A stretch of 64,000 bases of DNA from Actinomycetota bacterium (GTDB taxonomy: Bacteria > Actinomycetota > Actinomycetes > Nanopelagicales > Nanopelagicaceae). Numbering within the stretch: position 1 is the first letter of the stretch; every line of letters starts with the position of its first letter. Location: NCBI GenBank assembly GCA_009699575.1, contig WLNY01000003.1:1-64000 (forward strand), written 5' to 3'. The position numbers and the translations under genes were made by a program. Below, one piece after another: positions 1-12,165 of the stretch. The notes under the pieces were generated by a model. The model saw only the letters and a program-made list of their open reading frames with translations, searched no databases and was not told where the DNA came from.

Positions 1-180
1 ATGTTGGTGCTACTGCATGGAGTTATTTCATCCTGGCGGTCCGGCAAAATTGCGCCAATGAATCCGTGGCAGGCAAAGACTCTCGAATGGAGTGTCGCAA
101 ACCCTGTACCTCTTGAAAACTTTGCAGAATTACCAGTTGTTACTTCAGATGCGTACGGTTATGGAAAGGCACAATCATGA
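1..180 (+). CDS. ctaD: Cytochrome c oxidase subunit I, C-terminal end (partial)
   Basis: This is the last 59 codons of a gene that enters from the left edge, so the first ATG in the window is not its start. The frame reads through NPWQAKTLEWSVANPVP and then NFAELPVV, the conserved cytoplasmic tail of heme-copper oxidase subunit I (aa3-type cytochrome c oxidase). The catalytic core, with the heme ligands and CuB site, lies outside the window. The stop overlaps the start of the next gene as ATGA, so translation of subunits I and III is probably coupled. A quinol oxidase subunit I cannot be fully excluded from the tail alone. Confidence 0.85.
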   Translation: MLVLLHGVISSWRSGKIAPMNPWQAKTLEWSVANPVPLENFAELPVVTSDAYGYGKAQS

Positions 181-782
181 GCGTTGAAACACATAACCCA
201 CATCATGAACATCCAGATGTCGTCGGAAGTCGAAATAGACTCGGCGTCATCCTGATCTTGGTCGCCGATATAGCTTTCGCACTTGGAATTCTCTTTGTTT
301 ACTTTTACCTTCGTCAACAGAATGTGAACGGGATGTGGTTGCCATCAGCAACAGAGGAACATCCAGCGATATTACCTATAAACACTCAAGGTTCTTGGAC
401 TGTTACTTCAGCGGCAGCGCTTGGTCTAGCGGCGCACTATTACGCGCTTAAAGGTGTTCGCGTAGGAAATCTCACGCAACTAAAACTGGGTGGCTTAACT
501 GCCACAGTTTTTTCACTGGTTGCGCTAGTGCTTCAGTTCAATCAGATTTCAAATGCGCCCTTTACATTTAATTCTGGTTCCTACGCGTCCTGTTATTACT
601 TGATCACAATAATGAATCTGGTCCACCTTATTCTCACCGCATTCATTTCATTTGGAAATTGGAATCGCTCGCGGTTGGGTATTTATGCAAAAGATCATTG
701 GCATGTTGAGATCGTCAACATTTGGTGGGTCTGGATGACTGTGTCATCATTACTCGGTGCATTCGCCCTCTCATTTAGTTAA
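177..782 (+). CDS. ctaE: Cytochrome c oxidase subunit III
   Basis: This is a 201-residue membrane protein with about five hydrophobic segments. It carries the subunit III signatures ADIAFALGILFVYFYLR near residues 30-46 and HWHVEIVNIWWVWM near 173-186, the conserved HW/W motif of the COX3 family. Subunit III stabilises the aa3 oxidase and supports proton uptake. The length suits the short bacterial form, which lacks the first two helices of the mitochondrial protein. The ATG overlaps the ctaD stop by four bases, so the two belong to one operon. The 3' end overlaps the next reading frame. Quinol oxidase subunit III is a close relative and a less likely alternative. Confidence 0.85.
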   Translation: MSVETHNPHHEHPDVVGSRNRLGVILILVADIAFALGILFVYFYLRQQNVNGMWLPSATEEHPAILPINTQGSWTVTSAAALGLAAHYYALKGVRVGNLTQLKLGGLTATVFSLVALVLQFNQISNAPFTFNSGSYASCYYLITIMNLVHLILTAFISFGNWNRSRLGIYAKDHWHVEIVNIWWVWMTVSSLLGAFALSFS

Positions 783-1662
783 TAAAAGTTGGATTTGGCA
801 ATACTTAGCACTTGGAATTGCTTGGGGCTGCTCGTTTATTTTTATCAAACTAGGTCTTGAATTTCTCACACCAGTGGGAGTCGCATTTGGACGAGTCTCA
901 CTCGGAGCGCTCACACTTATTACATATGCACGTTTACGCAAGATCTCATTGCCACGTAATCCTAAAATATGGGGACATTTAGTTTTCCTCGCTTTGAGCC
1001 TCAATGTCATACCAGGAATTCTTTTCGCTCAAGCCGAAACGCAAGTTACCTCAATTCTCGCCGGCATTATCAATGCAGTTACTCCCCTAATGACACTGGT
1101 GGCAATTATGCTCTTTTTCCGATCTGAAAAAGTTTCTCGCGAACAAATTATTGGGCTACTCGTAGGCTTTCTGGGAGTTCTCACAGTTCTAGGAGCATGG
1201 CGAGGGCTTGGTGATAATCCACCTTCAGCAATTCTTGCATTATTAATAGCGGTAACCTGCTATGGATTTTCATTCCCGTATTCCAGAAAGTTTGTACTAC
1301 CTAAGCAAATACAGCCTGAAGCATTAGCGGCTACACAAGTTCTCATCGCTTCGATTATCTTGCTACCTTTTTATCTTATTGATGGAATCGCAAAAGAGGA
1401 ATATCGGCCTGGTCCAGTATTTGCAATGATGGCACTTGGGATATTTGGAAGTGGATTTGCCTACATCTGGAATTTTCATATTATGCAAGCAGCAGGGAGT
1501 GCCATCGCAAGTTCGGTAACTTTCGTCACGCCAGTTGTCGCCGTAATTGTTGGAGTTATATTTCTAGGCGAGGGAATCACCTGGTATGAACCCTTCGGCG
1601 GTTTGATTGTTCTCTGCGGCGCCGCTATTGCACAAGGACGTTTAAAACTTAGTCGATCTTAA
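757..1662 (+). CDS. EamA/DMT-family membrane transporter
   Basis: The product is a 301-residue protein of about ten hydrophobic helices arranged as two repeats, the layout of the drug/metabolite transporter superfamily (two EamA domains). The first repeat opens with LGIAWGCSFIFIKLGLEFL, and the second half contains the typical GSAIASSVTFVTPVVAVIVG and GVIFLGEGITWYEPFGG. Such proteins export amino acids, metabolites or drugs; the substrate cannot be read from sequence. The GTG start chosen overlaps ctaE by 26 bases and no convincing later start exists, so coupling to the oxidase operon is likely. Its 3' end overlaps the converging nickel-permease gene by 14 bases. Confidence 0.8.
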   Translation: MHSPSHLVNKSWIWQYLALGIAWGCSFIFIKLGLEFLTPVGVAFGRVSLGALTLITYARLRKISLPRNPKIWGHLVFLALSLNVIPGILFAQAETQVTSILAGIINAVTPLMTLVAIMLFFRSEKVSREQIIGLLVGFLGVLTVLGAWRGLGDNPPSAILALLIAVTCYGFSFPYSRKFVLPKQIQPEALAATQVLIASIILLPFYLIDGIAKEEYRPGPVFAMMALGIFGSGFAYIWNFHIMQAAGSAIASSVTFVTPVVAVIVGVIFLGEGITWYEPFGGLIVLCGAAIAQGRLKLSRS

Positions 1663-2836
1663 AAGCATCACGAATAGGGCCAAGTTCAAGACCTGCTGCA
1701 GCATGATCTGAAATTTCACCACGCTGCATTTGAGCTGCATGTGCTTTGTTATGCCAGCGCTCTTCAATCTTTCCATAGCGCCATAAAAGAAGCGCCACAG
1801 ACCAGACAACAACGAATGCACCCACAATAAAGTAACCCGCGTCGTTGAGATTAAAAGCAAGAGCGTAATCCCAAAACCCACCGCTCAAACTTAATTGCCG
1901 AGCGAATACTTGACATAACTCTAAGCCGCCAACGAAAAGAGCAACAGAAACCGATAGACCAGTAATAATAATGTTGTAATAAACCTTACGAACCGGTTTT
2001 GAAAAAGCCCAACCATAAGCAAAGTTCATAAATGAACCATCGATAGTGTCGAGTAGTGACATTCCACCTGCGAAGAATAAAGGTAATGAAATAATCGCCC
2101 ACCAAGGAAGTCCAGCAACAACAGATGATCCGGCTAGAACAAGTAAACCAATTTCTGTTGCTGTATCAAATCCAAGACCAAAAAGAATTCCAAGCGGATA
2201 CATTTTCCAACTTGCATCGATGCGTCGAGCAATCGGGCCAAAAAATCGCATAAGCAATCCTCGAGAATTAAGATGCTTCTCTAATTCTTCTTCATTGTAT
2301 GTACCTTTACGCATTTGAATAAAAACGCCCACAATAGAAACCAGGATTATAAGATTGAGAATTGCAATGAGCATTAAGAAAGTTCCAGAAACTGTCGTTC
2401 CAACTAATCCGGTGTAATGATGTAGCGAAGAGTTCTCATCTTTTAGTTGACCACCAAGTGCTTTAATTCCAAAATTCAGTAAAATCGCGAGAAATGCAAC
2501 AACAGATGAATGTCCCAATGAGAAAAAGAAGCCAACCGCTAAAGGTCTCTTTCCTTCAGCCATTAACTTACGCGTTGTGTTATCAATGGCGCTGATGTGG
2601 TCAGCATCAAAAGCGTGACGCATTCCAAGTGTGTAAGCCAGTGCTGCGGTTCCCCAACCAAAGAGGGAGCCGTCACTAAGTTCGTAGTTACCACTTGTTG
2701 CTTTCCACATGAGCAAGGCCCCAGAAACGTGCAGAAAGGCGATAAAGCCAAACATCGCTCCCATACGTCGCCATTCATCGCGGGTCAAGCGTTCGCGTAG
2801 CGGGATCCTTTGGATCTCTCCGACGACTTGATTCAT
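1649..2836 (-). CDS. High-affinity nickel permease, NiCoT family
   Basis: This is a 395-residue multi-spanning membrane protein of the NiCoT (HoxN/NixA/NicT) family, which imports Ni2+ and sometimes Co2+. The family signature H-X4-D-H is present as RHAFDADHI at residues 73-81, followed by GFFFSLGHSSVV and GFDTATEIG, the other metal-site motifs. I chose the ATG at 2836 rather than an upstream in-frame ATG because GAGGAG lies just ahead of it and the upstream extension would cover the promoter. The gene stands alone and diverges from a secreted-protein gene. A palindrome matching the actinobacterial Nur box lies between promoter and start, so nickel repression is expected. No nickel enzyme gene is in the window. 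Confidence 0.9.
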   Translation of the reverse strand: MNQVVGEIQRIPLRERLTRDEWRRMGAMFGFIAFLHVSGALLMWKATSGNYELSDGSLFGWGTAALAYTLGMRHAFDADHISAIDNTTRKLMAEGKRPLAVGFFFSLGHSSVVAFLAILLNFGIKALGGQLKDENSSLHHYTGLVGTTVSGTFLMLIAILNLIILVSIVGVFIQMRKGTYNEEELEKHLNSRGLLMRFFGPIARRIDASWKMYPLGILFGLGFDTATEIGLLVLAGSSVVAGLPWWAIISLPLFFAGGMSLLDTIDGSFMNFAYGWAFSKPVRKVYYNIIITGLSVSVALFVGGLELCQVFARQLSLSGGFWDYALAFNLNDAGYFIVGAFVVVWSVALLLWRYGKIEERWHNKAHAAQMQRGEISDHAAAGLELGPIRDAFKID

Positions 2837-2859
2837 GTGCGGTGACTCCTCAGTGGTTG

Positions 2860-2876
2860 TTGCAAATGATTTGCAT
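2860..2876. promoter_or_regulatory. Putative Nur (nickel-uptake regulator) operator
   Basis: The plus strand reads TTGCAAATGATTTGCAT, an inverted repeat with the form TTGCAA-N5-TTGCAt. The Streptomyces Nur (FUR-family) box is tTGCaa-N5-ttGCAA, which this matches at nearly every position. It sits 23 bases upstream of the nickel-permease ATG and covers the predicted transcription start of that gene, the usual place for a nickel-dependent repressor site. Zur and Fur boxes have different cores. Confidence 0.75.
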
Positions 2877-2880
2877 GTAG

Positions 2881-2909
2881 AGGGTAAGGGGCAGGAAGGA
2901 CTCTGTCCA
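2881..2909 (-). promoter_or_regulatory. Predicted promoter of the nickel-permease gene
   Basis: Read on the minus strand this gives TGGACA, a 17-base spacer, then TACCCT. The predicted start of transcription falls about seven bases further on, inside the Nur-like box at 2860-2876. The -10 is weak outside the invariant TA and final T. Confidence 0.5.
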
Positions 2910-2911
2910 CT

Positions 2912-2917
2912 TAAACT
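2912..2917 (+). promoter_or_regulatory. -10 box for the secreted DMFase-like gene (leaderless)
   Basis: TAAACT ends seven bases before the ATG at 2925, which places the transcript start on or next to the start codon. This supports the ATG at 2925 as the true start and suggests a leaderless mRNA. No Shine-Dalgarno sequence is visible. Confidence 0.5.
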
Positions 2918-2924
2918 AGGGACC

Positions 2925-4304
2925 ATGAGAGGACCCCACCCTTTACTGAGAGCGATTGTGGCCTCCTCGATCTTCATTTCCCTTATTGCTTCGTCACCAC
3001 ACAGTCATGCCCTTGGGGGCTGCGGCTGGGATACCAAAGATGGATGGGTGGCACGAGAAAATGCCAAAGCTGGAAATCCCACATGGGATACAGGTCTGCC
3101 CGTTCGGATGAGTGCAGATTTCAGTAGGCGAAATCCTGGCTCTTCTCGAATTGAAGGATGGTTTGGTTCGACCAGTGCTCGATGCGGCCAGACAGTAGCT
3201 CTACACCTTGTAGGGCTTCGCGATGAGGCAAAGATTTCAATTTATCGAATGGGCTATTACAAAGGCGCAGGTGCTCGTTTTATCTCTTCAGCCAGAGTAA
3301 AAAACCCACTGTGGAAATACACCATTTCCAACCAAACCCCACCAGGACAATATTTATTTCGACTTGATCAAGCAAAGAGTGTTAGTGCCTTCGTTCCCTT
3401 GATAATTCGTGATGAGAATTCGAAATCGAATATCACATTTATTTCATCAGTCCTCACGTGGCAGTCCTATAACCAGTGGGGCGGCTCATCGCTGTATAAA
3501 GGTCCAAATGCAAAGCGGGAAACACAGGCAAAAGAAGTTTCCTTCGATAGACCATACGATGGCGATGGAGCGGGACAATTTAGATATTTAGAATTTCCAG
3601 CCACACAGTTGGCTGAGAAAAATGGAATCGCAATAAATTACATAACTGATATTGATTTAGATTCCGATCCAACGGTATTGAGATCCACACAATCAATAGT
3701 TGTTGGAGGTCATAGTGAATACTGGACCGAAAGAATGCGCGGAGCCATAGAAACATCAGTTAATCGTGGAATTAATCTTGTCTCACTCGGAGCAAATACC
3801 GGATATAACCGCACAATACTTTCACAAAATTCGCGAGCAATGGGAAAAATAGTGAAATGGCGTGATCCAACTATTAAAAAACCGGAATCTTTACTTTTTG
3901 GTTCACAATATTTCGCGTTGGGTGTTCATGAAGACTACGTAGTTACAAACGCACAAGTGTGGCCATTTAACGTGCTAAAGCAGGGACAAAGAATTAAAGG
4001 AATTGCTGGCAATGAAGTTGATTCGGCTCTTAATGCCAAAGGCCCCGCTATTGAGGTTCTTGCAAAATCCTCTAATGAAGCAATGGCTACCTATTACACA
4101 TTGCCCTCAGGATCTGGCATCTTAAATATGGGGACAATTGGCTGGGTATGCGCCATTGGAAACATTTGTCCATGGGGTCATAAATTTGCTCTGAGAACAA
4201 GGAATGAAATACGACTAGTAACAGAAGAGATTTTCACAGGACTTACTAAGGGACCTCTAGGGCACTGGCGCCTAGCAACACCCGATATTCCTGCACGTTT
4301 GTAG
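2925..4304 (+). CDS. Secreted N,N-dimethylformamidase beta-subunit-like protein
   Basis: The 459-residue product begins with a signal peptide (MRGPHPLLRAIVASSIFISL, then a small-residue stretch ending near residue 30). The remainder resembles the C-terminal domain of the N,N-dimethylformamidase large subunit, a family often found as lone secreted proteins in actinobacteria. Visible hallmarks are IYRMGYYKGAGAR, LTWQSYNQWGGSSLY and VVGGHSEYWTERM near residues 259-271; in DMFase a tyrosine of the equivalent GxHxEY segment binds the mononuclear iron. There is no small-subunit gene next to it, so amide hydrolysis is unproven. A longer in-frame start at 2835 was rejected because it precedes the signal peptide and promoter. 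Confidence 0.65.
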   Translation: MRGPHPLLRAIVASSIFISLIASSPHSHALGGCGWDTKDGWVARENAKAGNPTWDTGLPVRMSADFSRRNPGSSRIEGWFGSTSARCGQTVALHLVGLRDEAKISIYRMGYYKGAGARFISSARVKNPLWKYTISNQTPPGQYLFRLDQAKSVSAFVPLIIRDENSKSNITFISSVLTWQSYNQWGGSSLYKGPNAKRETQAKEVSFDRPYDGDGAGQFRYLEFPATQLAEKNGIAINYITDIDLDSDPTVLRSTQSIVVGGHSEYWTERMRGAIETSVNRGINLVSLGANTGYNRTILSQNSRAMGKIVKWRDPTIKKPESLLFGSQYFALGVHEDYVVTNAQVWPFNVLKQGQRIKGIAGNEVDSALNAKGPAIEVLAKSSNEAMATYYTLPSGSGILNMGTIGWVCAIGNICPWGHKFALRTRNEIRLVTEEIFTGLTKGPLGHWRLATPDIPARL

Positions 4305-4369
4305 CCTTTTGCGTATAGAGTCGCCATCACTTCAATGTACTTACGTGCAAAATCTATGGGGAGGTCAAC

Positions 4370-5323
4370 ATGAGTGAAGATGGCGACCAAGACGATCTCA
4401 TCACCGAAGAAATGCTATGGGATCGAATTCCAGAAGTAGAAGGCGCAGAGCGAGCAAGTACTTACTATGAATTAAGCGCACGGATTTATGCACGAGGACA
4501 ATATGACGAAGCGCTAGCGCTTGCAGAAACAGCCTGCGATATTTATTCAGGACTCGGTGCTAGCGCGCCGAGTGAAGGACTTGCACAGGCGTATTCCGCG
4601 ATTGGTTATAACCTGAATCAACTGAAGCGTATGGACGAAGCTGCAACTGCCATGAGTAAAGCGGTTGAAATATTGCGCCAAAACAAATCTCCGATTGCTC
4701 TCGAACTTGCATGCACCTTAGGCGAGTGGTGGTATTCCTCGAAGAGTTATGAAAAAGTAATTGAAACAATGGAAGAATGTGCTCAAGAACATCTAGTCGA
4801 TGGAAATGAAATCGGCGCAGCGAATGACCTCCATTTAATTGGGTGCGCGTACCGAGACCTTAAAAAATATGAAGAAGCAGTTGCATCTTTCCAGGAGGCT
4901 CGCGGTCTCTATAAGAAGAATAAAGAAGTTATCCACGTTGCTCGTTGTGATCAAAAGATTGCCTCGTGTCTTGTAGAACTCGATCGAGGCGAAGAAGCAC
5001 TTACTGCTGCCCGTAAGGCACTGGATGTTTTTGAAACAGCACATGATCATTTGCGTGAGACCTTTGCGCTATTTGAGTACGGAAAAGCTCAGATCCTTCT
5101 AGGCAAACTAGAAGAAGGTTTGGATTCACTCGATCAAGTTCTTCAAATTGCCACAGATGAAGATCCAAAAGATTTTGAATTCATCGTGGACATTGAAGGC
5201 CGAATGTCAGTTGTTATGCGCAGACTTGGTCGAATTGATGAAGCGAATGAAGTGGATAGGCGACTACTTTCTGTGCGAGAAGCTATGTCTGAAAGCAGTA
5301 GCAGCGAAGAAGAGCGCGCCTAA
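4370..5323 (+). CDS. TPR-repeat protein
   Basis: The product is a 317-residue soluble protein made almost wholly of tetratricopeptide-like helix pairs. Examples are YYELSARIYARGQYDEALALAE near residue 30, LAQAYSAIGYNLNQLKRMDEAATAMSKAV, and LIGCAYRDLKKYEEAVASFQEAR. TPR arrays mediate protein-protein contacts; the partner is unknown. It has no signal peptide, starts with an acidic segment, and ends with a serine/glutamate-rich tail. The ATG is preceded by a strong GGGGAGG sequence seven bases upstream, and TATAGAGT about 55 bases upstream is a possible -10. Its last 60 bases overlap the converging MFS gene. The role cannot be inferred from neighbours. Confidence 0.8.
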   Translation: MSEDGDQDDLITEEMLWDRIPEVEGAERASTYYELSARIYARGQYDEALALAETACDIYSGLGASAPSEGLAQAYSAIGYNLNQLKRMDEAATAMSKAVEILRQNKSPIALELACTLGEWWYSSKSYEKVIETMEECAQEHLVDGNEIGAANDLHLIGCAYRDLKKYEEAVASFQEARGLYKKNKEVIHVARCDQKIASCLVELDRGEEALTAARKALDVFETAHDHLRETFALFEYGKAQILLGKLEEGLDSLDQVLQIATDEDPKDFEFIVDIEGRMSVVMRRLGRIDEANEVDRRLLSVREAMSESSSSEEERA

Positions 5324-6445
5324 AAACGCTCCGAAAGCGGCAATAAGCAAGGGCCACTGGATTTCGCCTTGGCTCCACAGGAGGCCACCCCAGATCCCGG
5401 CGCCCAGAACAGCAAAGTTCATTGATGCTTGGTAAACACCTTGTGCACGGCCTCGATGGTTTTTTTCACTGAGTCCAGCAATCCATGCTTTCCCAACTCC
5501 ATCAGTGAGTGCTGGAAAAAGTCCGTAGATTGCAAGTGCAAGTAAAGCAATTCCATGATTGTGCGTGATGCCAAGAAGTGCGTAGGCGGTCGAGAAAGCA
5601 GTAAGTCCCACTGCATAAATTATGCGTGGAGAAAACCTGTCAGCTAAGTATCCACCGGGATATGCAGCGATAACTGTCATCCCGCTAAATAATATATATG
5701 CACCAACCACACCTTTGGTCGAAAATCCAATATCGTGTAGTCGAAGTAAAAGAAGTGCATCAGGAATATTTGTTAACTGGATAAGTACAAGTATTGCGAT
5801 TGCACGCTTTAATGGATTGGGTAAAATTGGATGAGGTTCGAGCTTAATTGGGCGAGGTTGACGCGCGGGCTTATCTTTTTCACGAATGAGCAAAGTAAGA
5901 AGACCAGAAATTAGCGCAGGAATCAGCGCCCATTTTGCGACTGCGCGCACATCATCATTTAATAGTGTTAATCCGATGAGAGCCAGCAGTGGACCTATAA
6001 CTGCACCTAAATTATCGCCGCTGCGGTGAAACCCAAAGGCCTTCCCTAAATCCTTTTTCTCCACAGAGTCATGAATAAGTGCATCTCGAGGTGCACTTCG
6101 CAATCCTTTTCCAATTCGATCTGTCACCCGGCCAAAGAAAACAAGCGGCCAGGATGAGGCAAGAACTACAAAACCTTTACCAATTCCTGCAACCGTATAA
6201 CCAGCAACTACAAACGGTTTTCGACCGATGCGGTCACTGGCACCTCCTGAAAGTAGTTTTGTGAAACCAGCCGCTGCCTCTGCACAACCTTCTATTAAAC
6301 CTAAAGCCAATGGCGCCGCACCTATTACTCCTGTGAGGAGAATAGGGAGTAAAGGATAGAGAAGTTCACTTGCAGCATCTTGTGCCAACGATATTAAAGT
6401 TAAAATTATGAGATTTGGTGTGAGCCAACGCAGAGATGAATTCAT
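5264..6445 (-). CDS. Major facilitator superfamily transporter
   Basis: This is a 393-residue protein with about twelve hydrophobic segments. The loop after helix 2 reads GGASDRIGRKPFVVAGY, the classic MFS motif G-x3-D-R-x-G-R-[KR]. A second-half counterpart, GGYLADRFSPR, is also visible, as expected of the duplicated fold. The substrate is not evident; the family includes drug and sugar exporters. It follows the SpoU methyltransferase gene with a four-base ATGA overlap, so the two are cotranscribed. The last 20 codons run antisense into the TPR gene, an unusually long convergent overlap. Confidence 0.85.
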   Translation of the reverse strand: MNSSLRWLTPNLIILTLISLAQDAASELLYPLLPILLTGVIGAAPLALGLIEGCAEAAAGFTKLLSGGASDRIGRKPFVVAGYTVAGIGKGFVVLASSWPLVFFGRVTDRIGKGLRSAPRDALIHDSVEKKDLGKAFGFHRSGDNLGAVIGPLLALIGLTLLNDDVRAVAKWALIPALISGLLTLLIREKDKPARQPRPIKLEPHPILPNPLKRAIAILVLIQLTNIPDALLLLRLHDIGFSTKGVVGAYILFSGMTVIAAYPGGYLADRFSPRIIYAVGLTAFSTAYALLGITHNHGIALLALAIYGLFPALTDGVGKAWIAGLSEKNHRGRAQGVYQASMNFAVLGAGIWGGLLWSQGEIQWPLLIAAFGAFLGALFFAATAFRHSFSHRK

Positions 6446-7089
6446 CGAGGTAAATGAATCAGTGCCCAGTGGTACATCGCGATTGCCCCAGCAGCTGATG
6501 CATTCATCGAGCGGGTAGAGCCATATTGCTCGATGGCGTACAGAACAGGACAGATAGCTATTGCTTCATCCGACATTCCTGCGCCTTCCTGCCCAAAAAG
6601 CAGTACGCAACTCTCCGGTAGCTCTGCTGATTCAAGTTGCTTTGAACCAGGAACATTATCGATTCCAACAATTGGAACATCATTACTTTCACACCAATCA
6701 GCAAATTCAGCGATGGTGGGATGGTGAATCACGGTGAGATATCGATCAGTAACCATCGCACCGCGCTTGTTCCAATCTCGTTTTCCAATTATGTGAACAG
6801 CGGTGACATTAAATGCATTTGCAGTTCGAACAATCGAACCAATATTGAGGTCATGTTGCCAATTCTCAATGGCAATCTGCAACTTATGTCGCTTAGTGTT
6901 CAGATCCGCAACTATTGCTGCAACCGTCCAATATCGATAATGATCAAGGACATTCCTCCTGTCACCATTTTCGAGGAGTTCAGAATCCCACTGCTCTCCC
7001 TCTGGCCACGGGCGTGGGTGAGGACCGACACCAACAACGGGAAAAAATTCACCTGGGCCGATTGTGGCCGGAGTTATTGGAGTATCCAT
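6442..7089 (-). CDS. SpoU/TrmH-family RNA 2'-O-methyltransferase
   Basis: A 215-residue SPOUT-fold methyltransferase that uses S-adenosylmethionine to methylate a ribose 2'-OH of tRNA or rRNA. The three family motifs are present: LNIGSIVRTA at residues 81-90 with the Asn and Arg, LLFGQEGAGM at 163-172, and IEQYGSTRSMNASAA at 186-200, which forms the knotted cofactor site. The N-terminal 75 residues are an extra domain of unclear role. A TAGAGT box six bases before the ATG suggests a leaderless transcript. The target nucleotide cannot be told from sequence. It heads a two-gene operon with the MFS transporter. Confidence 0.85.
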   Translation of the reverse strand: MDTPITPATIGPGEFFPVVGVGPHPRPWPEGEQWDSELLENGDRRNVLDHYRYWTVAAIVADLNTKRHKLQIAIENWQHDLNIGSIVRTANAFNVTAVHIIGKRDWNKRGAMVTDRYLTVIHHPTIAEFADWCESNDVPIVGIDNVPGSKQLESAELPESCVLLFGQEGAGMSDEAIAICPVLYAIEQYGSTRSMNASAAGAIAMYHWALIHLPR

Positions 7090-7095
7090 GTATGC

Positions 7096-7105
7096 ACTCT
7101 AAACT
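7096..7105. promoter_or_regulatory. Back-to-back -10 elements of divergent genes
   Basis: The sequence ACTCTAAACT has the form ANNNTANNNT. On the minus strand it supplies TAGAGT six bases before the methyltransferase ATG at 7089. On the plus strand it supplies TAAACT for the membrane-protein gene at 7133. The two hexamers share the central TA. Confidence 0.45.
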
Positions 7106-7132
7106 GAACACCTTCAGAATGGGAGTTCACGC

Positions 7133-7498
7133 ATGAGCCTGGTCCACACAATTGCCTTTGTGATTCATATGCTTGCAATTATCGGAATTTTAACTCTGCT
7201 GATACATCCACTCAGAGCTTTCCCTCGCACATTTAATGTGGGCGTAATTCATAGTGCGGCTACCGCTCTAGTCGCAGGAGTTGTGATGGTGGGAGTTCAA
7301 CATGGATTACATGCAGATAATCCAACTGAATATCCACTCTACAACAACACCAAAATTGCAATTAAGTTTTTAATTGTTGTTGCTATTCTAATTCTCGGAC
7401 TTCGCCAGAAAAATAAATCTGAATTCACAACCAATACATGGGCAACAATGTTGGGTCTAACAATAATAAATATTTTGATTGCTTCCCTTTGGAATTAA
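7133..7498 (+). CDS. Small four-helix membrane protein, unknown function
   Basis: I do not recognise this 121-residue protein. It has four hydrophobic segments at roughly residues 3-25, 38-56, 76-93 and 103-119, short loops, and no cofactor motif apart from histidines near helix ends (H5, H12, H25, H40, H57, H60). The start ATG has GGGAG seven bases upstream. It lies directly ahead of dacB with eight bases between its stop and the dacB start, so both are likely transcribed from the divergent promoter at 7096-7105. A respiratory or cell-envelope role is possible but unsupported. Confidence 0.65.
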   Translation: MSLVHTIAFVIHMLAIIGILTLLIHPLRAFPRTFNVGVIHSAATALVAGVVMVGVQHGLHADNPTEYPLYNNTKIAIKFLIVVAILILGLRQKNKSEFTTNTWATMLGLTIINILIASLWN

Positions 7499-7506
7499 TC
7501 TCACAC

Positions 7507-8709
7507 ATGTATAAAAAGAACTTCCCCATATTTGCAACTCTCCTCTCTTTTGCTTTGCTTGTAGGAATCGCACCCGTGCAGGCCTACTCGAAACTTCAGC
7601 CGTCAGCCATTTTCCCAACTCTGGAAGCAATGGCGAATTCGAAATTCCTCGCTGATCCTTCTATGATTTTTATTGACGCATCTACTGGCGAAGTTGTCTA
7701 TGAAAGAAATTCCACTCAAGCTCGGCGACCAGCGTCTGTTCTCAAATTATTATCGACTACATCTGCATTAACATATCTAGATCCAAGCAAATCTTTCACA
7801 ACATCTATCTCTCTTGGAGTCGAAAGTAAGACGCTCGTGATTAATGGAGAATTTGATCCGTGGATTTCACTGAGTCAATCTCAGGCAATAAAGATGAATC
7901 GCACATCACTTCCACGCCTTGCATTTAATGCGATAAGTGCAGCGAAAAAAGCTAATAACAATTCGCTGCGCGGTCTTAAAATTCTATACACAGGAATCTT
8001 TAGTCAGGATGCAGCAAACTTTGAAGCTTTCTTGCATAAAAGGAGAGTTTATGCGAAATTTGTGCGAGTCACTCCATCGCAAGCTGTGGAAGCATCAGGC
8101 GAACCATTTATCGTCTCGAGCTCACCACCTTTGTCAACTATGGTGGAATTTGCTTTAACCTGGAGCGATAATTTGCTTGCAGAACGTTTAGCGCGACTCG
8201 CTTCAAAAGCCTCTGGGAATTCATTTGACGATACTGGAGTGAATAAAACCTTTCACACAGTTCTAACAAATTTTGGAATAGATCCAGATTTGCTAGAAGT
8301 TTCAGATGGAAGTGGGCTTTCAAAAAAGAATAGAGTTACCGCGCGATCGATTGCCACTCTTCTCATGAAAATTAGAAATGAAGCACAATACAAACCTATT
8401 TATGATGGACTCCCTATTGGCGGAGTGTCAGGAACGCTACTCAAGAGATTTATTAATACTGCCCCTCAAGCTGTCGGTCTGGTTCATGCAAAGACGGGAA
8501 CGCTTAATGGCACCGTCAGTTTGGCAGGATTTGTAGATAGCGGTGACCGACAATATATTTTTGTTGCGATTGCCGATCGGATACCACGAACAAGTTCGGC
8601 TATGAATAGCGCAAGGAACGCATTGGATAGAATTGTAGGAAAATTGGCGCTACCGATTTTTCCTGTTATTGCTTCAGCACAACCCTCGCCTGAAGTATCG
8701 ATTATTTAA
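7507..8709 (+). CDS. dacB: D-alanyl-D-alanine carboxypeptidase/endopeptidase (PBP4 type)
   Basis: This is a 400-residue exported class C penicillin-binding protein. The three active-site motifs are S77-V-L-K80, S220-D-N222 and K329-T-G331. Such enzymes trim the terminal D-Ala of the peptidoglycan stem or cleave cross-links outside the membrane. The N-terminus (MYKKNFPIFATLLSFALLVG, then Ala-rich) is a signal peptide. That is why I place the start at the ATG at 7507 and not at an in-frame ATG 69 bases earlier that would overlap the previous gene. Its stop codon shares a TTAA tetramer with the stop of the converging gene. Confidence 0.85.
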   Translation: MYKKNFPIFATLLSFALLVGIAPVQAYSKLQPSAIFPTLEAMANSKFLADPSMIFIDASTGEVVYERNSTQARRPASVLKLLSTTSALTYLDPSKSFTTSISLGVESKTLVINGEFDPWISLSQSQAIKMNRTSLPRLAFNAISAAKKANNNSLRGLKILYTGIFSQDAANFEAFLHKRRVYAKFVRVTPSQAVEASGEPFIVSSSPPLSTMVEFALTWSDNLLAERLARLASKASGNSFDDTGVNKTFHTVLTNFGIDPDLLEVSDGSGLSKKNRVTARSIATLLMKIRNEAQYKPIYDGLPIGGVSGTLLKRFINTAPQAVGLVHAKTGTLNGTVSLAGFVDSGDRQYIFVAIADRIPRTSSAMNSARNALDRIVGKLALPIFPVIASAQPSPEVSII

Positions 8710-9041
8710 TCTTCCTCTTCTTCCTCTTCTTCATCATCTTCGTAATTGCCGGCTCTGTCATGATCTTCGCGGTCATCTGAAATATTTGATACAGAAGGGG
8801 CTGCCATAGTTGGGGTGGCTACAGGAGAAGCCGTGTCCGTTGCAACAGGGGCGCCTTGTGCCACATTTTGAGCACTCGCTGGCGCTTCATCGCCGACCTG
8901 AGCGGCAGCAACTCCCAAACCAATAACCAACATAGGAATGCTCAAAGCGACGATTTTGAAATTAAATTTCGCCTTTTTTGCAGGGATAAATCGATCATTA
9001 TCGGCAAGCTGGAACCATTCTGGTTTCTCTGGAGGTGTCAT
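8706..9041 (-). CDS. Single-pass membrane protein with acidic tail, hypothetical
   Basis: The 111-residue protein has a polar N-terminal segment (about 27 residues), one hydrophobic helix near residues 28-48, an Ala/Thr/Pro/Val-rich linker, and a C-terminus that is almost all Asp and Glu (ten acidic residues close the protein). With the basic residues before the helix, the acidic tail is probably outside the cell. I do not recognise a family. AAAGGGG lies ahead of the ATG. The tail is encoded by an imperfect run of CTTCCT/CTT repeats, which could change length by slippage without loss of frame. It shares a TTAA stop tetramer with dacB. Confidence 0.6.
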   Translation of the reverse strand: MTPPEKPEWFQLADNDRFIPAKKAKFNFKIVALSIPMLVIGLGVAAAQVGDEAPASAQNVAQGAPVATDTASPVATPTMAAPSVSNISDDREDHDRAGNYEDDEEEEEEED

Positions 9042-9118
9042 TGTGAGCCCCTTTCGTTACCCATAAAGTAGCTGCCCTCGCTGGGAGCATCCTGAGAACA
9101 GCCTTCCAGCTTCGTGAG

Positions 9119-9124
9119 TAATCT
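9119..9124 (+). promoter_or_regulatory. -10 box for heme O synthase (leaderless)
   Basis: TAATCT ends six bases before the GTG start at 9131. This spacing puts the first transcribed base at about the start codon and supports that GTG as the true start. Confidence 0.45.
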
Positions 9125-9130
9125 AGCCAC

Positions 9131-10012
9131 GTGAGCACAACTGGCAGTCAAACCCGAGGCTATATAGACCTCATGAAGTTAAGGGTCGTGGAACTTCTTC
9201 TTGTGACCACTTTGCCCGCCCTTGTTTTGGCAAAAAAAGGCGTACCTTCATTTGGACTCACACTCGCAACAGTTATTGGCGGAACGTTAGCGGCAGGTGC
9301 TGCCAATGCGTACAACATGGTGATTGAAAGTGACTTGGATAAATTAATGGCCCGCACTTCTAAGCGACCTTTAGTTACGGGAGTATTAAATAATAGGCAA
9401 GCAACAATATTTGCAACGATTGTTGCGCTGGTTTCACTCGTAATTTTCTGGGTGTTTACAACACCGCTTGCAACGCTTCTGACACTTATTGCAATTGCGT
9501 TTTATGTAATCGTGTACACGATGGGACTTAAAAGAAGAACTGCACAAAATATTGTGTGGGGTGGGGCTGCAGGATGTATGCCCGTGTTTATTGGATGGGC
9601 AGCAGTTACAAATTCTTTATCGTGGACTGCCGTTGCATTCTTTATGGTTATTTTCTTTTGGACTCCGCCTCATTTCTGGGCACTGGCCATTAAATATAAA
9701 GATGATTATGCTGCAGCAAATGTTCCCATGTTGCCCGTTGTAGCAACACGAGAAAGAGTGCACAGGGAGATGTGGCTACACACATTGGCCATGATTATTT
9801 CTTCAATTGCAATGATTTGGTTAGCAGAACTTCCGTTGTGGACCATGTGTATAACAATCGGATTAGGGCTTGTATTTGCATATCAATTATTTGAGCTCCG
9901 CGAGAATAATCCGGATTACACAAAAGTAGCTGGCAAAATCTTCCAATGGTCTATAACGTATTTGAGTTTGCTTTCTATATTATTAGTGGTTGCTCAACTT
10001 TTAAAAGCTTGA
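9131..10012 (+). CDS. ctaB: Protoheme IX farnesyltransferase (heme O synthase)
   Basis: This 293-residue polytopic UbiA-family prenyltransferase adds a farnesyl group to heme b to give heme O, the step before heme A for aa3 oxidase. The prenyl-diphosphate/Mg site is NAYNMVIESDLDKLMARTS at residues 59-77 with the paired Asp residues, and YTMGLKRRTAQNIVWGG is the characteristic loop after helix 4. PPHFWALAIKYKDDYAAANV is the second conserved site. The GTG start fits the adjacent -10. Heme A synthase (ctaA) is not in the window, though it often lies close by. The gene converges with metZ and overlaps its end by 19 bases. Confidence 0.92.
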   Translation: MSTTGSQTRGYIDLMKLRVVELLLVTTLPALVLAKKGVPSFGLTLATVIGGTLAAGAANAYNMVIESDLDKLMARTSKRPLVTGVLNNRQATIFATIVALVSLVIFWVFTTPLATLLTLIAIAFYVIVYTMGLKRRTAQNIVWGGAAGCMPVFIGWAAVTNSLSWTAVAFFMVIFFWTPPHFWALAIKYKDDYAAANVPMLPVVATRERVHREMWLHTLAMIISSIAMIWLAELPLWTMCITIGLGLVFAYQLFELRENNPDYTKVAGKIFQWSITYLSLLSILLVVAQLLKA

Positions 10013-11220
10013 GTTAAGTCGTGGAGCAAATCGTCAACATGCTCAAGCCCGACAGACAAACGCACGACAGAATTCGTAATACCCATCTCAACTAAGGTCT
10101 CTTGAGAGAGTCTGCGGTGGGTTGTCGATGCAGGATGGGTTATTAAGGACTTACTGTCACCTAAATTATTTGAAATATCGATGATCTGAAGGCCGTCAAG
10201 AAATGAAAATACTTCCTTTTTCCCACCATTAAATTCAATACCAATAGTTGTGCCACCCATTTTATTCATCTGCCGCATAGCAAGCTCGTGCTCGGGGTGT
10301 GATTCCAATCCAGGGTATCGAACACTTGCAATTTCAGGACGTGCCTCCAGGAATTGCGCCAGAATTTGTGCGCTTTGATTCATGCGTTCAACACGCATCT
10401 GCATTGTTTCGAGAGACTTCACCAGCACCCATGCATTAAAGGGACTGAGTGATGGCCCCGTATGTCGAATAAACGGAATCAGGCGTTCATGAATGTATTC
10501 AAAGGATCCAAGAACGGCTCCGGCTAACACGCGTCCTTGACCGTCAATGTGTTTAGTCGCTGAGTACATAACGACATCAGCACCAAGGGTAAGTGGTTTT
10601 TGTAGAACAGGCGAAGCCATCACGTTATCGACAATCACAAGAGCTCCAACTTTATGTGCGAGCTCACTGACCATAGAGATATCGACGATTTCCATCAACG
10701 GGTTACTGGGAGATTCAATAAAAACTATTGAAGTCTTTTGTGAGAGTGCTTTTGCCCAAACTTCTGGATTATTTCCTGAAACAAGTTCAACTTGTATTCC
10801 CCACTTTGGCAAAATTTCCGTAAGGACCACATGACATGAACTAAACATTGCAGCCGAGGCAACAACTCGATCACCAGCTTGTACAACCGATGCGATAGAG
10901 GCAAACATGGCAGACATTCCCGAACCAGTAGCAACACAGTATTGAGCACCTTCAATAGCTGCTAACCGTTTTTCAAACATTTCAACAGTCGGGTTTCCAA
11001 AACGACCATAAACAAAGTGATCTGTTTGATCGATAAAAGAATCGGCTGCTTCTTCAGCGCTTGAATAAGTAAAACCGCTTGTGAGATATAAAGCCTCTGA
11101 GGTTTCACCAAACCCCGATCGAGCAAGTCCTGCACGCACTGCTTGTGTTTGTGGGTCTAGCTCCCATTGAGGCTCGGGGCGTTCGGACCTATTTTGGTAA
11201 CCCCACGGACGTTTGGACAT
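9994..11220 (-). CDS. metZ: O-succinylhomoserine sulfhydrylase
   Basis: A 408-residue PLP enzyme of the Cys/Met metabolism family. YGRFGNPTVEMFEKRLAAIE at residues 71-90, the cofactor-stacking GSGMSAM region, and SATKHIDGQGRVLAGAV around the PLP lysine K223 match MetZ more closely than cystathionine gamma-synthase. MetZ uses O-succinylhomoserine (or the acetyl ester) and sulfide to make homocysteine directly for methionine synthesis. TAGACT lies six bases before the ATG, suggesting a leaderless mRNA. No other methionine gene is adjacent, so substrate choice between the acyl esters is open. The 3' end overlaps ctaB. Confidence 0.85.
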   Translation of the reverse strand: MSKRPWGYQNRSERPEPQWELDPQTQAVRAGLARSGFGETSEALYLTSGFTYSSAEEAADSFIDQTDHFVYGRFGNPTVEMFEKRLAAIEGAQYCVATGSGMSAMFASIASVVQAGDRVVASAAMFSSCHVVLTEILPKWGIQVELVSGNNPEVWAKALSQKTSIVFIESPSNPLMEIVDISMVSELAHKVGALVIVDNVMASPVLQKPLTLGADVVMYSATKHIDGQGRVLAGAVLGSFEYIHERLIPFIRHTGPSLSPFNAWVLVKSLETMQMRVERMNQSAQILAQFLEARPEIASVRYPGLESHPEHELAMRQMNKMGGTTIGIEFNGGKKEVFSFLDGLQIIDISNNLGDSKSLITHPASTTHRRLSQETLVEMGITNSVVRLSVGLEHVDDLLHDLTQAFKS

Positions 11221-11226
11221 ATACGA

Positions 11227-11232
11227 AGTCTA
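11227..11232 (-). promoter_or_regulatory. -10 box for metZ (leaderless)
   Basis: On the minus strand TAGACT ends six bases before the metZ ATG at 11220. The ABC-transporter gene diverges from the same 36-base gap; its own -10 is less clear (GATAGT ending seven bases before its ATG). Confidence 0.45.
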
Positions 11233-11256
11233 ATCGCGTGTGAGATAGTGGTTCAC

Positions 11257-12165
11257 ATGTCCAACCTAGCTATCTCAGTAAAAGACTTAAGCAAGAAATA
11301 CGGCGAGAGAATGGCTGTTTCGCATGCCACCTTTGAAGTTCCAATGGGGTCAGTCTGCGGATTTGTTGGCCCGAATGGTTCAGGAAAAACCACAACGATG
11401 CGAATGCTCCTTGGATTGATTTCCCACACGGGTGGCACAGGGGAAGTCCTCGGATCTTCCATTGATAATCCCGAGGAGTACCTCAGCTCTGTCGGAGCAA
11501 TGATCGAAGGCCCTGCCTTCTATCCAGCCTTAACAGGCTCAGAGAATTTAAAAGTTCTGGCAACCCTAGGTGGTTTTCCAATCGAACGAGTACAGGTGTT
11601 ACTTGACCAAGTAGGCCTTGGCGATCGCTCCAAGTCTAAATATAAAACATATTCACTTGGAATGAAACAACGACTAGGTATTGCAGCTGCCTTATTACCG
11701 AATCCAAAGGTGCTGATTCTCGATGAACCTACAAATGGTTTAGATCCTGAAGGAATTCAAGAAATTCGAGCACTCTTACGCAATCTTGCCGATGCCGGAA
11801 CAACAGTATTTGTTTCATCTCACTTACTTTCAGAATTAGAGATCATTAGCGATTACTTAGTGATGTTACGTAAAGGTGAAGTAGTTTTCTCAGGTGCCAT
11901 CCAAGATCTAATGAAACAGCAACAACCTATTATTTTAGTTAAAGGTTCTTCGAATGAGGATCTGAAAAAAATAGTAGAAATCGGAACTGCTGCTGGACAC
12001 CACTCAATTATTCGCGTCGATGAGGTGCACATTCAAGCATCAGCAGATTGGGCGCCAATACTAAATCGTGCGGCATTTGATGCAGGAATCACCTTGTCAA
12101 AACTCGCTCCGACGCTACCGAACCTTGAAGAAACATTCTTTGAAATGACTGGAGAGCAGAAATGA
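11257..12165 (+). CDS. ABC transporter ATP-binding protein
   Basis: This 302-residue ATPase belongs to the BcrA/CcmA-like group of ABC exporters. Walker A is GPNGSGKTT at residues 38-46, the signature is YSLGMKQRLG at 132-141, and Walker B is VLILDEPTNGLDP at 152-164, followed by the switch His in SSHLLSE. The C-terminal 80 residues are the variable domain usual in this group. I start at the ATG at 11257, because an earlier in-frame start would run back into the metZ gene. It overlaps the permease gene by ATGA. Bacitracin-like drug, lipid or peptide export is possible; the substrate is unknown. Confidence 0.88.
   Translation: MSNLAISVKDLSKKYGERMAVSHATFEVPMGSVCGFVGPNGSGKTTTMRMLLGLISHTGGTGEVLGSSIDNPEEYLSSVGAMIEGPAFYPALTGSENLKVLATLGGFPIERVQVLLDQVGLGDRSKSKYKTYSLGMKQRLGIAAALLPNPKVLILDEPTNGLDPEGIQEIRALLRNLADAGTTVFVSSHLLSELEIISDYLVMLRKGEVVFSGAIQDLMKQQQPIILVKGSSNEDLKKIVEIGTAAGHHSIIRVDEVHIQASADWAPILNRAAFDAGITLSKLAPTLPNLEETFFEMTGEQK

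Follow-up and report, generated by a model that had tools for sequence, protein, structure and literature searches.

The locus described here raises two questions: which sensor, if any, reads an inverted repeat lying in front of a nickel permease gene, and does that repeat belong to this permease in particular? The DNA analysed is a stretch of 64,000 nucleotides (positions 1 to 64,000 of contig WLNY01000003.1, assembly GCA_009699575.1) from an actinobacterium of the Nanopelagicaceae, referred to below as the window. The host assembly comprises 1.39 Mb in 49 contigs and is 85% complete. A preliminary description of the sequence had proposed that the repeat is an operator for the nickel repressor Nur, laid over the transcription start of a lone nickel permease gene.

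An inverted repeat at the putative nicT promoter

The features on which the argument rests are as follows (window coordinates).

757..1662, plus strand: EamA transporter gene, the other fixed edge of the slot opposite the TPR gene (PF00892; synteny)
1649..2836, minus strand: nicT, NiCoT-family nickel permease, 395 aa (NF052500 NicT equivalog; PF03824, E 1e-94)
2846..2851, minus strand: nicT ribosome-binding site GAGGAG, read directly from the sequence
2860..2876, no strand: candidate Nur-type operator TTGCAA-ATGAT-TTGCAT (pattern match; conservation upstream of NicT orthologues)
2881..2886, minus strand: putative -10 element TACCCT of the nicT promoter (sequence; a TTACCCT-like element recurs in orthologues)
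2904..2909, minus strand: putative -35 element TGGACA (sequence; TGGACA or TAGACA recurs there in many orthologues)
2925..4304, plus strand: divergent gene with a DMFA2_C domain, between the box and the TPR gene (PF20254; synteny)
4370..5323, plus strand: TPR protein gene, one fixed edge of the slot (domain match; conserved neighbour in the relatives compared)
6442..7089, minus strand: TrmH-like methyltransferase gene, named by inspection, which flanks the slot on its outer side (conserved neighbour in relatives)

The nicT product scores 495.9 bits with the NF052500 NicT equivalog model, for which the cut-off is 450, and is also above the cut-off of the NicO model (317.6 versus 27.7 bits). Relatives that share 80-92% identity with the permease come, among others, from organisms named Candidatus Nanopelagicaceae/Planktophila and from actinobacterial metagenome-assembled genomes (MAGs). 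The gene is on the minus strand with its ATG at 2836, 24 bp downstream of the dyad. Pattern searching located the dyad, TTGCAAATGATTTGCAT, at 2860-2876 with no mismatches, and its 15-bp core (2861-2875) is the perfect 7-1-7 inverted repeat TGCAAATGATTTGCA. As had been proposed, TTGCAA-N5-TTGCAT agrees with the published Nur-box consensus tTGCaa-N5-ttGCAA (PMC3919588), and on this basis the palindrome is a putative operator for the Nur of the host. The exact pattern occurs at two sites only in the 1.39-Mb assembly, the second of which lies within a 464-aa ORF. When up to two mismatches are permitted, 13 sites are found in the window against 17 expected, that is, no enrichment. A 489-aa ORF spans the box but was discarded as a reading of the DMFA2_C frame with its start placed too far upstream; the start of that gene is most likely at 2925.

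The putative -35 and -10 hexamers are separated by 17 bp and the box starts 5 bp past the -10, so that a transcription start 6-7 nt downstream of the -10 would fall within the box. This geometry agrees with the earlier placement of the start site inside the dyad, for a -10 element that is weak by consensus. TACCCT matches TATAAT at only three of six positions, and the nicT promoter was therefore not called by a generic sigma-70 scan; the putative promoter is supported by the recurrence of equivalents of both hexamers in many orthologues.

Conservation of the box

The preliminary description had staked its reading on conservation of the palindrome upstream of orthologous permeases, and such conservation was found while the flanking DNA has diverged. 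Within the genus, the dyad is upstream of all 25 NicT orthologues with readable upstream DNA, retaining 12-14 of 14 core bases. Mean information content across these 25 loci is 1.77 bits per column in the box versus 0.45-0.48 in the flanks, a comparison of aligned sequences that we regard as the strongest evidence that the dyad is unlikely to be a chance occurrence. In a second collection (L204-L244), 41 of 41 NicT orthologues with identities of 74% or more have the dyad, with 8-10 of 10 core bases retained, and the two loci that score 8 have symmetric TGCGAA...TTCGCA arms. Most acidimicrobial relatives of that collection have lost the dyad or show a doubtful version of it. A perfect TGCAAATGATTTGCA box is also seen upstream of the Mycobacterium kyorinense NicT (62% identity; L273), and the same control may therefore extend to other actinobacteria. 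Upstream of one same-genus nicT (genome G018, locus L037) two Nur-type boxes stand in tandem, 36 bp apart.

Different importers at the same locus

About half of the genus, complete genomes included, has no NicT, although Nur and nickel superoxide dismutase (NiSOD) are common. A search for the box revealed that many of the NicT-less genomes have it before an ECF operon that encodes CbiM, a PDGLE protein, CbiQ and an ATPase, and that in two genomes it precedes a second, divergent NiCoT (NiCoT2, 44-47% identity). The box lies ahead of the importer in all 21 same-genus ECF loci (10-14 of 14 core bases) and in both NiCoT2 loci. The permease is a lone nickel permease in the host genome, as first described, but relatives place different nickel importers behind this box, in the corresponding chromosomal position. 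CbiM is found in 22 and NicT or NiCoT2 in 30 of 61 genomes, and the two types never occur together (0/61; Fisher p ~1e-9). Neither type is found in nine of the 61, most of which are incomplete; one of these, G011, has a nicT fragment and the box at a contig end.

Gene order in the loci compared is TrmH-(MFS)-TPR-(DMFA2_C)-box-importer-EamA, the same as in the window. Only some genomes (the window, G003, G005, G014 and G015) have the DMFA2_C gene in the interval from the box to the TPR gene, indicating that the TPR side of the slot varies too. Pairwise comparison of loci with different importers locates the junctions. Between G003 (ECF) and G005 (NicT), the 4-kb left flank is 83% identical as far as 10 bp beyond the box, and to the right of the differing importers identity is 85% over 3.5 kb. 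Similarly, the left block common to G043 (ECF) and G052 (NicT) ends 5 bp past the box. In the remaining pairs the homology breaks upstream of the box, for example 66/60 bp upstream in G040/G052, so that in these cases the box arrived together with the importer.

In a tree of 41 genomes built by a short search from one locus, nur, and including MAGs, the three importer states are scattered, with at least 12 changes and a fit little better than that of shuffled labels. Such a scatter would also be expected if assembly or binning errors had misplaced importers, or if the nur locus used for the tree had itself recombined, and it is true that many of the genomes are fragmented metagenome bins and that the tree comes from a single locus. 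However, both states occupy this slot in genomes assembled as a single contig (NicT in G014 and G052, ECF in G015 and G040), and the G003 and G005 flanks remain closely similar over kilobases on both sides of different importers. We consequently consider an artefactual origin of the scatter unlikely.

Nur and Zur

Exactly two FUR proteins were found in the host genome, Nur on contig C20 and a Zur-like protein on contig C5. The first matches Streptomyces coelicolor Nur (3eyy) at 156.3 bits versus 59 for the next structure; the nur homologue on which the preliminary description had made its switch conditional is therefore present. Nur carries two metal sites, a Ni-site, whose residues we take to be numbered as in An et al. 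2009 (His70/72/126), and an M-site of four histidines (His33/86/88/90). The Ni-site histidines His70, His72 and His126 show no variation, either across the genus alignment or among 13 class relatives. Three of the four M-site histidines (His33, His86, His88 and His90) are present in the host protein, the exception being His86, which is a leucine; this position is a histidine in only 3 of the 13 sampled class Nurs and varies in the other 10, whereas the other six metal-site histidines are invariant. The host gene is part of an sseA-DUF1416-nur-ygfZ cluster (neighbour names by inspection), and nur likewise adjoins ygfZ in S. coelicolor (PMC4531530). No full Nur match was found in G046 and G056, same-genus genomes of at least 90% completeness, perhaps owing to gaps.

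The presence of a second FUR protein means that the dyad could instead be a Zur operator, with the permease under zinc control or cross-control. Actinobacterial Zur boxes have an AAATSATTT centre, which is common to the 7-1-7 nicT dyad, and the dyad is two mismatches from TGAAAATNATTTTCA. These two mismatches from the TGAAAAT-N-ATTTTCA type fall, however, at the conserved third base of each arm, and nearly all relatives conserve TGC...GCA at these positions and not TGA...TCA. Moreover, zur is distinct from nur and lies next to a ZIP transporter gene, and a better Zur-type site, TGAAAATGATTGTCA (G000:C5:22590-22604), lies ~20 bp upstream of the ZIP start. As the nicT box differs from this site, the two sensors have distinguishable boxes. 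Given in addition that all three importers found under the box belong to nickel/cobalt families, we allow Zur control of the permease only a slim chance.

Nickel demand and probable extent of the regulon

A nickel enzyme, Ni-SOD or urease, had been predicted elsewhere in the genome. NiSOD is indeed encoded outside the window, and in 57 of 60 same-genus genomes; urease was found neither in the host nor in any same-genus genome. The corrin-ring enzyme CbiC is likewise missing from the host and all same-genus genomes, and the lack of both urease and corrin-ring synthesis in the genus makes nickel the likely substrate of the importers. The converse possibility is that they carry cobalt and that the box is that of a cobalt-responsive regulator, since the NiCoT and CbiMNQO families include cobalt transporters (PMC2667541) and the models matched by the ECF CbiM are named for cobalt. 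Set against the absence of CbiC, a nearly universal NiSOD, a complement of FUR proteins in which only Nur and Zur were found, and the lack of any Rfam hit (to a cobalamin riboswitch, for instance) at window positions 1-12000, cobalt import under a cobalt sensor appears very improbable.

No Nur box was found in the NiSOD promoters of 17 genomes. An inverted repeat, AACAAGTGC/GCACTTGTT, upstream of the host NiSOD gene (L025, G000:C2) was set aside as it is found in the host only and is not conserved in relatives. Further copies of the palindrome were sought in the genome, as had been advised, and nearly all exact or one-mismatch sites proved to lie inside long ORFs; in these pattern searches of an 85%-complete assembly, the sites checked with at most one mismatch included only three outside long ORFs, namely the nicT box, ATGCAAATCAATTGCAT and GTGCAAATTCCTTGCAA. 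Both of the latter are weak candidate Nur sites. ATGCAAATCAATTGCAT (G000:C46:64698-64714; L057:1499-1515) is intergenic, upstream of a YceI-like gene (by inspection) and between it and a divergent 404-aa ORF. GTGCAAATTCCTTGCAA (G000:C20:5610-5626; L018:1501-1517) is intergenic ~1.8 kb upstream of nur, flanked by a thioredoxin-like gene (name by inspection) and a small membrane-protein ORF. In G003, G005, G007 and G036, TGCGAATSATTTGCA or its arm-swapped form occurs between moeZ and a FasR-like TetR gene (L156, L157, L158 and L169, at about position 2010-2060), either a clade-specific second Nur site or chance. Sites beside nur in several relatives were rejected because their distance from nur places them in upstream coding sequence. 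As NiSOD has no box, Nur may control little beyond the nicT locus, and may thus control essentially the nickel importer alone.

A proposed switch and its variants

From the box, promoter geometry, Nur, NiSOD, conservation, mutually exclusive importers, slot and junctions, which are observations on sequence, we infer Nur binding, nickel dependence, repression and nickel specificity of the importers. When nickel is sufficient, Ni-Nur would bind the dyad over the nicT transcription start and block initiation. When nickel is scarce, repression would lift and NicT would import Ni2+, most likely for NiSOD. By analogy with S. coelicolor, repression of importer transcription by occupation of the start region is the most likely mode of action. 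Throughout the genus, the same box would serve one slot in which the importer is swapped among NicT, the second NiCoT and an ECF NikMNQO-type operon.

The position of the box relative to the promoter differs between importers. A TTACCCT- or TTAACCTT-like -10 precedes the box at the NicT and NiCoT2 loci and at three of the ECF loci. Most ECF loci have a TTAAC(C/A)TT-like sequence after the box, 6-7 nt ahead of the ATG, an arrangement that would fit leaderless transcription from a putative -10 downstream of the box. Since the box in these loci would not cover +1, an initiation block at +1 does not apply to every locus; repression is compatible with either position. This difference in placement relative to the start codon and the putative -10, together with the presence of the dyad at few other intergenic sites in the genome, makes it barely credible that the dyad serves as a promoter or DNA-structure element, conserved but read by no metal sensor, even though in most NicT loci it keeps a fixed distance from a conserved -10.

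Taken together, we hold it to be highly probable that the repeat is a Nur operator, that nicT is repressed by nickel, and that the box has been kept while importers were exchanged. With somewhat less assurance, we favour the more specific proposal that the slot is a nickel-importer socket in which the operator stays and recombination has repeatedly exchanged the importer among three or more systems (the two different NiCoT proteins and the ECF importer of ABC type), under a Nur whose regulon has contracted almost to this single locus and does not include NiSOD among its targets.

The relatives named Candidatus Nanopelagicaceae/Planktophila belong to the acI lineage, which is reported to be more abundant than any other bacteria in most freshwater lakes (PMC5301498). 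With NiSOD encoded in nearly every genome of the genus, the import of nickel is probably vital to these bacteria and subject to regulation, and the retention of the switch while unrelated importers are exchanged suggests that nickel supply is under steady selection, probably for NiSOD. A fixed operator with an interchangeable importer amounts to a natural experiment on what selects a secondary permease versus an ABC-type importer; candidate factors are nickel level, competing metals, energy cost and phage pressure on a surface protein. The box is also evidence, from the side of regulation, that the CbiM operons of ECF type in this lineage, labelled "cobalt", may be nickel importers.

Comparison with known systems

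Nur-controlled nickel import is in itself a known kind of system. In the open-access papers searched we found none combining Nanopelagicales and nickel, and no earlier report of in-place importer exchange under a retained operator. An ECF cobalt/nickel module has been reported in one acI genome (PMC5301498), and mutually exclusive NikMNQO and NikKMLQO, as well as predicted NikR control of NikMNQO and NiCoT, have been described across bacteria (PMC2667541). The exclusion seen here differs in operating within one genus and at one locus, with the operator retained and the junctions visible.

The closest parallel is the S. coelicolor Nur regulon (Nur, nikABCDE, sodF), with which the host shares a Nur orthologue, a promoter box, a nickel-importer target and NiSOD (PMC3919588, PMC7055735). 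In S. coelicolor, Nur also governs sodF and, indirectly, sodN (PMC3919588, PMC7055735), whereas in the host genus NiSOD has no box and other intergenic boxes are few. The target, moreover, is a NiCoT permease or an ECF importer and not NikABCDE. The actinobacterial Zur regulon has in common a FUR-family dyad of 7-1-7 symmetry, but the nicT box differs from it at the conserved third position of the arms and the genome has a separate Zur with a Zur-like box. Among the importers, the host protein resembles the NicT/NiCoT (HoxN-HupN-NixA) permeases in exceeding the NicT equivalog cut-off, and NicT in this genus is distinguished by its Nur box and by alternating with other importers in one slot. 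The CbiM, PDGLE, CbiQ and ATPase operon of the relatives, finally, is of the ECF-type NikMNQO/CbiMNQO kind, and differs from the known examples in that it replaces NicT in an identical locus under the same box.
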